From positions 1 through 64,000 of the forward strand of contig CADALT010000025.1 in assembly GCA_902788785.1 (NCBI GenBank): 64,000 nucleotides of DNA. Direction: 5' to 3'. Made by a program: the position numbers and the translations under genes. Shown in pieces: positions 2,714 through 3,080 of this stretch. The notes under the pieces are model-generated. The model was not told where the DNA came from. It did no database searches and worked only from the letters and a program-made list of their open reading frames with translations. The first letter of the stretch is position 1; each line of letters starts with the position of its first letter. Origin of the DNA: an uncultured Ruminococcus sp. (lineage in GTDB: Bacteria > Bacillota > Clostridia > Oscillospirales > Ruminococcaceae).

Positions 2714-2742
2714 TTGACAAGTCCGGGCAGATGTGATATAAT
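2714..2742 (+). promoter_or_regulatory. Consensus sigma-A promoter of tRNA-Leu
   Basis: TTGACA (2714-2719), 17-base spacer, TATAAT (2737-2742): a perfect consensus, as expected for a strongly expressed stable RNA gene. It ends 16 bases before the tRNA. Confidence 0.85.
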
Positions 2743-2758
2743 ATCATGGTGGTATTAC

Positions 2759-3073
2759 GCCGCTGTGGTGGAATTGGCAGACACAAGGGACTTTGATGTT
2801 TGCTCACACAACAGTGTGACTGCGCAGCTGCGCAGAGAGTGCCCGTGGGGAAACTCACGGTGCAGAAGTCGGCTAAAACGGCGAAGGCGCAAACAGAACG
2901 CCGTGCTAACCTTACAGGTGAGTGTAGAGACTTTACACCGACTGCCTAAGTCCGCAAGGATAGGGCAAAGACCAAGTCCGGACTACAACGCATATATGCG
3001 GCTATGGTGACATAGAGTAGTGAGAAAATCCCTCGATAGCAATATCGTACCGGTTCAAGTCCGGTTAGCGGCA
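2759..3073 (+). tRNA. tRNA-Leu(UAA), interrupted by a group I intron
   Basis: The 5' exon is 2759-2793 and the 3' exon 3025-3073; joined they give an 84-nt class II tRNA. The acceptor stem GCCGCTG pairs with TAGCGGC (one G-T pair). The D arm is GTG/CAC around GAATTGGCAGA. The anticodon stem AGGGA/TCCCT closes the loop CTTAAAA, so the anticodon is UAA. The long variable arm is CGATA-GCAA-TATCG and the T stem ACCGG/CCGGT closes TTCAAGT. A73 is the discriminator and CCA is not encoded. The interruption lies between U34 and A35, the classical position of the cyanobacterial and plastid tRNA-Leu(UAA) intron. A consensus promoter precedes the gene and a strong terminator follows. Confidence 0.93.
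2794..3024 (+). ncRNA. Group I self-splicing intron in tRNA-Leu(UAA)
   Basis: 231 nt with the group I core visible. The splice site follows a U and the intron ends in G (3024). P1 is exon GGGACTT with an internal guide near 2837-2844. P2 is CCGTG/CACGG. P3 is AGTCGG (2867-2872) with CCGACT (2938-2943). P4/P5 is ACGGCG (2878-2883) with CGCCGT (2899-2904). P6 is ACCT/AGGT. P7 is GACT (2929-2932) with AGTC (2975-2978), in R- and S-like contexts AGAGACT and AAGACCAAGTCC. P8 (2944-2966) is capped by a GCAA tetraloop, and P9-type hairpins follow (2989-3000; 3002-3015 with a GTGA loop). No homing endonuclease fits inside. Size and position match subgroup IC3. Two extra hairpins enlarge the P1 loop. 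Confidence 0.9.
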
Positions 3074-3080
3074 TACACAC

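Follow-up and report, generated by a model that had tools for sequence, protein, structure and literature searches.

The window, that is, the whole stretch of 64,000 nucleotides analysed here, from a gut-type bacterium, carries a tRNA-Leu(UAA) gene at positions 2759 to 3073, and this gene is split by a 231-nt insert between U34 and A35. When introns were allowed, ARAGORN called a single gene across the window, at this position and with a 231-nt intron ('gactt-Intron-aaaat'); with the default setting, no tRNA was called in the window. The joined exons give an 84-nt tRNA in which all stems are formed and which ARAGORN reads as Leu(taa). These results agree with the first-pass annotation, which had deduced the exon ends and the tRNA fold by removing the insert, had placed the intron at the cyanobacterial position of tRNA-Leu(UAA), and had proposed an intron-permitting tRNA finder as a check. 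As read by eye, a promoter-like sequence precedes the gene, with neither an element arm nor a split 5′ half of a tRNA between them, and a strong terminator-like hairpin with a T run follows it. No endonuclease frame was found in the 231-nt intron; the sole overlapping frame of at least 80 codons traverses the tRNA and does not look like an endonuclease by eye. The CCA tail is not encoded in the tRNA-Leu gene of the window (3068–3079) or of its congener G158, and is encoded in most of the carriers' genes printed. The coordinates of the features are collected in Table 1.

It was found that the insert is a group I intron, with a fold and covariation far beyond chance. On an alignment of 32 introns, RNAalifold returned P1, P2, P3, P4, a P5, P6a, P8, and P9 unprompted. 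P7 is a pseudoknot, which is beyond what RNAalifold can show, and was added by hand to give a 56-pair model. In this model, 95.7% of 1,792 cells are paired (versus 33.8–38.2% when slid), 37 pairs have changes on both sides, and none of 500 shuffles was as good. All five pairs of P3, three of the five of P4, and all three of P6a change on both sides, P7 and P8 are 99.0% and 99.2% paired, and the last pair of P7 is exchanged between A-U and U-A (18 and 14 sequences). The conserved P3-P4-P6-P7-P8 core with its P3/P7 pseudoknot is thus present. The U-G pair at the 5′ splice site is found in 32 of 32 introns (U2793 and G2837 in the window). The terminal G at the 3′ end (G3024) is nearly invariant in the alignment, to be read with the fact that the splice-site rule applied to carriers itself demands a G before AAAA. 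In line with the group I literature, the guanosine site is expected at G2929-C2978 of the window P7.

Most of the core noted in the first-pass annotation is correct, namely P1 with its U-G geometry, P3, P4, P6, P7, P8, P9, and the terminal G, but the P5 hairpin is not there; L5 pairs with the 5′ end of the intron. The two extra hairpins noted in the P1 loop are real and conserved, being kept across the subfamily of the window intron, and only the limits of the first are better set at 2804–2819 than at 2803–2818. A further insert of about 160 nt lies within the first extra hairpin in L050/L094, making an intron of 403 nt in which no frame of 60 codons was found.

Table 1. Features of the interrupted tRNA-Leu(UAA) gene (positions in the window)
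Feature	Position	Strand	Basis
Promoter-like TTGACA, 17 nt, TATAAT	2714..2742	+	Read by eye; immediately 5′ of the tRNA gene
5′ exon of tRNA-Leu(UAA), last nucleotide U34	2759..2793	+	ARAGORN; spliced exons give tRNA-Leu(taa)
P1 exon strand CUU, pairs with GAG 2837–2839, U-G at the splice site	2791..2793	+	Invariant in 32/32
Group I intron, 231 nt, phage-type, P5-less variant	2794..3024	+	197.3 bits with model R1, of which the window is itself a building row
Long-range helix, strand 1, UGUUUGC (intron nt 4–10)	2797..2803	+	Helix count and 18-row alignment
Extra hairpin 1, P1 loop	2804..2819	+	Both-side changes in 6/6 pairs, 100% paired (11 rows having both hairpins, within the 18-row alignment)
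Extra hairpin 2, P1 loop	2820..2835	+	100% paired, both-side change in one pair (same 11 rows)
P2 hairpin	2840..2864	+	56-pair model, helix 3
P3 5′ strand, partner 2938–2942	2868..2872	+	Helix 4; 5/5 pairs change on both sides
P4 5′ strand, partner 2899–2904	2878..2883	+	56-pair model, helix 5
Long-range helix, strand 2, GCAAACA, in L5	2889..2895	+	Helix count and 18-row alignment
P6/P6a region	2905..2922	+	Helix 7; limits approximate
P7 5′ strand, bulged A2928, partner 2974–2979	2927..2933	+	Helix 8; 99.0% paired
P8 with GCAA loop	2943..2967	+	Helices 9–10
P9, two hairpins, the second with GUGA loop	2983..3020	+	Helices 11–13
Terminal G of the intron	3024..3024	+	ARAGORN; nearly invariant in the alignment
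3′ exon of tRNA-Leu(UAA), no CCA encoded	3025..3073	+	ARAGORN

In the window intron, no internal helix of three or more Watson-Crick pairs lies between the P4 strands, and a long-range helix joins L5 to the intron 5′ end. A helix of at least six pairs, with at most one G-U, between the P4-P4 segment and a stretch starting at intron nucleotides 3–6 was found in 39 of 39 introns without a P5 hairpin and in 4 of 55 introns with one, where P5-less means a P4-P4 segment lacking an internal helix of three or more Watson-Crick pairs and where L131, L141, L142, and L160 are left out for having no readable P4 segment. Of the four exceptions, L169 and L197 appear to be genuine members that the hairpin criterion put in the wrong class, and L124 and L140 are A/T-rich. 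Thirteen different sequence pairs were seen, such as UGUUUGC/GCAAACA in the window, UGUUUAC/GUAAACA in L082, CUUGGC/GCCAAG in L167, and UCGUGG/CCACGA in L101. When the 26 distinct helix partners were re-dealt, the mean was 10.6 and the maximum 17 in 500 tries. In the 18-row alignment, 96.8% of the cells of its seven pairs are paired, and six of the seven pairs have both-side changes. Since the polarity of the L5 strand is that of the 3′ strand in an ordinary P5, and since the adenosines of J4/5 and J5/4 are retained, the long-range helix can be read as a P5 that borrows its 5′ strand from the 5′ end of the intron. It is expected to stack on P4 in the stead of P5 and to keep the 5′ splice site near the core. 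The L5 helix may have arisen twice, because the core trees keep the window-type clade apart from another clade of P5-less phage introns.

The missing hairpin also explains the outcome of the covariance-model check proposed earlier. The first-pass annotation had named the lack of a match to a group I model as a refutation, and with Rfam this was indeed the outcome. The Rfam model RF00028 (Intron_gpI) gave no match in the window, either at its own cut-off or when 421 bases were searched at E 10, and over the whole window genome it has a single match, elsewhere, of 16 bits. The model reports seven of seven tested relatives with a P5 hairpin (L051, L052, L053, L067, L127, L171, and L193) and none of 14 tested P5-less introns (that of the window; L043, L044, L045, and L050; L082, L101, L126, L132, L167, L170, L172, L180, and L197). 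Thus, RF00028 misses the window intron because its fold differs, and the intron is still group I. A verdict from Rfam alone, equating no match with no group I intron, was rejected since the miss was traced to the missing hairpin, and an insertion of another kind was rejected by the core fold, the covariation, and the helix results.

Is this intron common in the relatives of the window genome and beyond? A DNA search of 297 genomes of the family revealed related introns in 12 genomes besides the window's own. One copy belongs to Ruminococcus callidus ATCC 27760 (L099), which has the same intron at the same position as the family genome G208; the annotation of the window as DNA of a Ruminococcus-like genome was correct in that it belongs to the same family as R. 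callidus. A pattern for the shared 3′ core matched 51 stretches of prokaryote and 81 of viral contigs, and the spliced host tRNA is tRNA-Leu(UAA) in 49 of the former (two not parsed) and 55 of the latter (25 not parsed, one other). By record title, 44 of the 51 prokaryote stretches are Clostridia-type, and several others are phage-like, with tRNA arrays in L082, L101, L102, and L109. Among the viral contigs are long ones that bear tRNA arrays (L127 and L146), and in a separate search a 205-nt copy was found in the 735,411-bp record of an uncultured phage. Long phage introns contain HNH-type frames; among four tested in Pfam, two pass the HNH cut-off, one lies below it, and one has no match. 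The phage contig L132 has the architecture of the window intron, with the L5 helix (by the count) and both extra hairpins (by eye), plus an HNH-type frame. A three-part pattern for the window type gave no match in the viral contigs.

Several other features were noticed in these contigs. Members of the family also seem to lie, one base farther along, in phage tRNAs of the amber-suppressor type (anticodon CUA as read by eye) on the viral contigs L153, L165, L183, and L185. Two other viral contigs, L201 and L161, have family introns at the equivalent position of phage tRNAs, which ARAGORN reads as Leu(CAA). A weaker group I-like match of another kind was found within what looks like coding sequence and, by eye, might be a phage tail gene (G604:C4:27115-27368; L205). 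A ROOL RNA adjoins the tRNA array of the large phage L127 (3148–3722), and a tmRNA lies within the tRNA array of the phage-like contig L082 (3571–3934).

A covariance model, R1, was built from the 32 introns. It found 12 of 12 known carriers, some of which are its building rows, and none in 16 other genomes of the family, including four congeners of the window genome. Across the order, where six candidates per genome were scored and the search is not a census, 4 of 345 genomes have a match at E 0.01, and only that of the window's own genome is strong and of the window kind. In the cyanobacterial phylum, 48 of 146 genomes gave R1 matches, and two of these (L101's genome and L233) look phage-borne. 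The 23 cyanobacterial loci score 92.0–115.1 bits versus 184.6–213.9 bits for the Clostridia loci, some of which were used to build R1. In a tree of 101 introns, from which seven second-half matches had been dropped beforehand, the window type, phage-like L082 included, forms one clade (support 100), and the cyanobacterial introns form a separate, distant clade (support 97, or 100 without L215 and L230). The cyanobacteria-sampled L233 was placed among phages, and the branches between groups are only partly supported. In a second tree, made without L132 and L148 (split in two by the model), element-borne and resident copies are interleaved with mostly weak support, a pattern compatible with more than one direction of transfer, and the window copy lies on a fairly long branch.

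It was revealed that many copies are carried by integrative elements that target tRNA-Leu. The 23 window-type copies of Ruminococcaceae comprise 10 element-borne ones, marked by a scar, an arm or an adjacent integrase (L046 and L111 come from one genome), two relics, and 11 without a sign of an element, including the window copy; among these 11, L084 and L120 offered only 268 and 193 nt downstream. In eight loci (L048, L049, L079, L083, L100, L107, L111, and L112), the split 5′ half of an intronless host tRNA-Leu, ending ...GACTT/AAAATC, lies about 210–270 nt 5′ of a whole intron-bearing tRNA-Leu(UAA). By eye, a promoter-like sequence precedes the split half in most of the eight, and the halves differ among several hosts. 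In L044, L046, L048, L049, L079, L083, L097, L100, and L107, a convergent gene for a tyrosine integrase (PF00589) ends 64–132 nt past the tRNA, and the proteins are 47–100% identical to that of L079. The integrase gene on the contig of L112 ends 54 nt past the tRNA, and the sequence downstream of L111 is too short to judge. L044 and L046 lie at contig ends, where the arm and the integrase are seen and the split half is not. The relic L097 has an intact integrase, yet the promoter lies directly at the tRNA, and the relic L091 has an integrase remnant of 76 residues. At L043, there is neither scar nor arm in 700 nt, nor an integrase in 2,500 nt. Outside the window type, a split half with an integrase remnant was found at L118, whose intron is of a different subtype with a P5 hairpin, and the other 25 non-window-type prokaryote loci checked do not show this arrangement.

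The left and right ends of the elements share a common core, ACTCAAAATC, and its UAA version, ACTTAAAATC, is the exact sequence interrupted by the intron. The element of Ruminococcus albus 8 (L079 3892–7387) carries two C5 cytosine methylases and a BpuJI-like restriction enzyme as cargo. At E 1e-80, the integrase was found in 66 of 347 genomes of the family sample, and 30 integrase loci were read. Four have an intron-bearing replacement tRNA (L271, L273, L279, and L285). Three have an intronless replacement with a split half, with a changed core in L277 and an intact core in L278 and L280. Another four (L272, L275, L276, and L294) combine the integrase, which is 97% identical in L272, with an adjacent, intact, intronless tRNA-Leu(UAA). 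The remainder lie near tRNA-Ser(CGA) or tRNA-Gly or where no tRNA was found; the integrase relatives L288, L289, L291–L293, and L297–L300 adjoin tRNA-Ser(CGA), not tRNA-Leu. Since intronless replacement tRNAs exist, the elements do not need the intron. A displaced tRNA-Leu 3′ half with an arm was also observed on the minus strand of L262 (G772:C8, position 19649), at a distance of 8 kb and in opposite orientation to the split 5′ half, which could be due to an inversion, a second element, or a misassembly.

At the window locus itself, no integrase or attachment arm adjoins the tRNA and no trace of an element was found; the best integrase match in the window genome (G000) is 29% identical and located elsewhere. 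The congener G158 has an intact intronless tRNA-Leu(UAA), and behind it lie homologues of the EAL-type gene (57% identity) and the 96-aa gene (70%) of the window locus, ordered and oriented as they are in the window. The G158 locus is the empty site for the window intron. The two genes also lie near tRNA-Leu, there on the other strand, in R. albus 8 (L250), on the contig of L112 (L262), and in L120. Thus, the window copy can be read as a resident of the chromosome, because the neighbourhood in G158 is intronless, because the promoter of the gene is directly upstream, and because no arm or integrase adjoins it.

An element of this kind has struck the window genome elsewhere. Contig C22 begins just inside an arm, after the 5′ half of a tRNA-Leu(CAA) gene (C22:84-104, L270), and contig C29 has the matching 3′ half (C29:40241-40289, L002) behind another arm. 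The joined halves give a perfect tRNA-Leu(CAA), whose gene is whole in G158, and no intact tRNA-Leu(CAA) gene was seen in the G000 assembly. The arm on C22 matches that of L277 at 89 of 89 bases; the genome of L277 belongs to a different genus, and its element has an intronless replacement tRNA-Leu(CAA). Thus, an integrative element has split the tRNA-Leu(CAA) gene of the window's genome. As for the gene copy number, G000 has 43 tRNA-model matches, and those with a long arm are Leu UAG, CAG, and GAG, Ser, and Tyr. The only match to a pattern describing an unbroken Leu(UAA/CAA) anticodon region is the split CAA gene. A second intact tRNA-Leu(UAA) gene, the presence of which would have spoken against the first-pass annotation, was not found in the G000 assembly. 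Since this assembly of 67 contigs is 90.57% complete, such a gene might be absent from it. A cluster of five tRNAs (Trp, Gln, Phe, Cys, and Gln; G000:C4:67782-68221), whose anticodons are duplicated elsewhere, is possibly phage-borne.

The best joint reading is that a functional group I intron with a helix replacing P5 interrupts the only detectable tRNA-Leu(UAA) gene and gives an ordinary tRNA by guanosine-initiated self-splicing, that it belongs to a mobile family, and that the window copy is a resident left behind by an element or phage; I regard this as likely. The exons, the fold, and the covariation are observed, and on these grounds the window intron probably self-splices, so that the excision would leave an ordinary tRNA-Leu(UAA). 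The family appears to be mobile, as tRNA-Leu(UAA) genes of phages harbour many relatives, and some of these introns enclose an HNH frame. The tyrosine integrase of the element would split the host tRNA-Leu in the anticodon loop, and the element would bring a complete tRNA-Leu(UAA), intron included, as a replacement. Through recombination of the split 5′ half with the 5′ exon, to which it is identical, the element-borne state may then become the relic state, and the loss of the integrase may turn the relic into the resident state. The window copy was most likely left as a resident by such an element or phage.

Does the intron serve as a genetic shield? It lies in the middle of the core (ACTT^AAAATC), so that an intron-bearing tRNA-Leu might no longer be splittable by this element family. 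If so, it would be immune, and the replacement gene of the element and chromosomal genes such as that of the window would be protected alike. It is consistent with this idea that the intronless tRNA-Leu(CAA) of the window's genome is split and its intron-bearing UAA gene is whole, and that the intronless replacement in L277 has a changed core base. On the other hand, the intronless replacements in L278 and L280 keep the core, and the element of L272, with its 97% identical integrase, adjoins an intronless tRNA. I consider the shield doubtful, and as a universal rule it was rejected, because some replacement tRNAs lack the intron and yet retain an intact core.

The first-pass annotation had asked whether the intron came from cyanobacteria or by independent insertion. 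The answer seems to be a third one, as the near kin are in phages and in elements targeting tRNA-Leu, and the cyanobacterial introns are a distant clade. It may still be asked whether an ancient tRNA-Leu(UAA) intron of the cyanobacterial type was kept here by vertical inheritance and lost in most relatives. The tRNA and the U34/A35 position are the same, and the R1 matches in the cyanobacterial phylum, two phage-borne-looking ones among them, would fit. In six Clostridia loci, three of them titled Borkfalkia, Val, Gly, and Cys tRNA genes share the stretch with the intron-bearing gene, which fits vertical descent there. However, the intron is present in at least 13 of 297 genomes of the family, the window's own included, and absent from four of four tested congeners, similar copies are found on elements beside differing host tRNA halves, and the cyanobacterial introns form a clade of their own on a long branch. 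Vertical inheritance is therefore unlikely. A direct transfer from a cyanobacterium or a plastid is disfavoured still more and seems highly improbable: the available excerpt of a tRNA review (PMC4033280) makes these the textbook home of the intron site, but the cyanobacterial loci score far lower with R1, a model partly built from the Clostridia loci compared, and their clade is distant with the high support given above.

The gene might also be silent or decaying, with splicing lost and the tRNA supplied by a copy that was not assembled. The incompleteness of the assembly and the long branch of the window copy would allow for this. However, the core helices and the helix replacing P5 are all formed in the window copy, its exons give a perfect tRNA, and the promoter-like sequence and the terminator-like hairpin read by eye are present. 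I regard silence as quite improbable, and the functional, mobile intron left behind as a resident is preferred over these alternatives.

The usual example of an ancient intron of cyanobacteria is the group I intron of tRNA-Leu(UAA), which is also found in plastids. A gammaproteobacterial case was reportedly described by Vepritskiy in 2002. The window intron resembles the group IC3 introns of cyanobacteria and plastids (e.g., Anabaena) in the tRNA, in the U34/A35 insertion site, in the order of the P1–P9 core, and in having no P5abc, and R1 places it in the same superfamily. In contrast, it belongs to a separate clade of the tree, and its type is distinguished by the missing P5 hairpin, the two added hairpins of the P1 loop, and the helix between the P1 loop and L5. 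Elements with a tyrosine integrase (PF00589) that target tRNA genes usually restore the gene with a half copy. The elements found here share with them the integrase beside the attachment site and the displaced tRNA half, but the anticodon loop serves as their crossover core (ACTYAAAATC), and they supply a whole, separate replacement tRNA, often with an intron at the core.

Phage group I introns with HNH homing endonucleases have the phage hosts and the HNH-type frame in common with the present family, whose phage members sit in tRNAs, mostly tRNA-Leu(UAA), whereas the available excerpts of a review and of a paper on crAss-like phages speak of protein-coding genes. In Beggiatoa and Thiomargarita, group I introns are present in the same tRNA outside cyanobacteria, though in a phylum other than that of the window, and in the available part of the report their structure or type was not determined by its authors (PMC4853749). 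The excerpt of the tRNA review names cyanobacteria and alpha- and beta-proteobacteria as the bacteria with group I introns in tRNA (PMC4033280). Among the matches listed in a search of open-licence papers, there was no tRNA-Leu intron of Firmicutes, no phage tRNA-Leu intron of the window kind, and no P5-less variant.

The site of the textbook cyanobacterial intron thus carries an intron family that extends across Clostridia, large phages, and integrative elements. The helix replacing P5 is a clear and covarying change of plan in the core of a ribozyme. It also accounts for the failure of both the curated Rfam model and a tRNA finder at default settings on these genes, as a result of which tRNA-Leu(UAA) could be reported as absent from such genomes. 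Elements that break a tRNA gene and then replace it are of interest by themselves. Since the vehicles, phage introns with HNH frames and replacement tRNAs, are visible, the route into an essential chromosomal gene is directly testable, and the kin borne by elements and phages suggest a concrete route by which introns may enter essential genes of bacteria.
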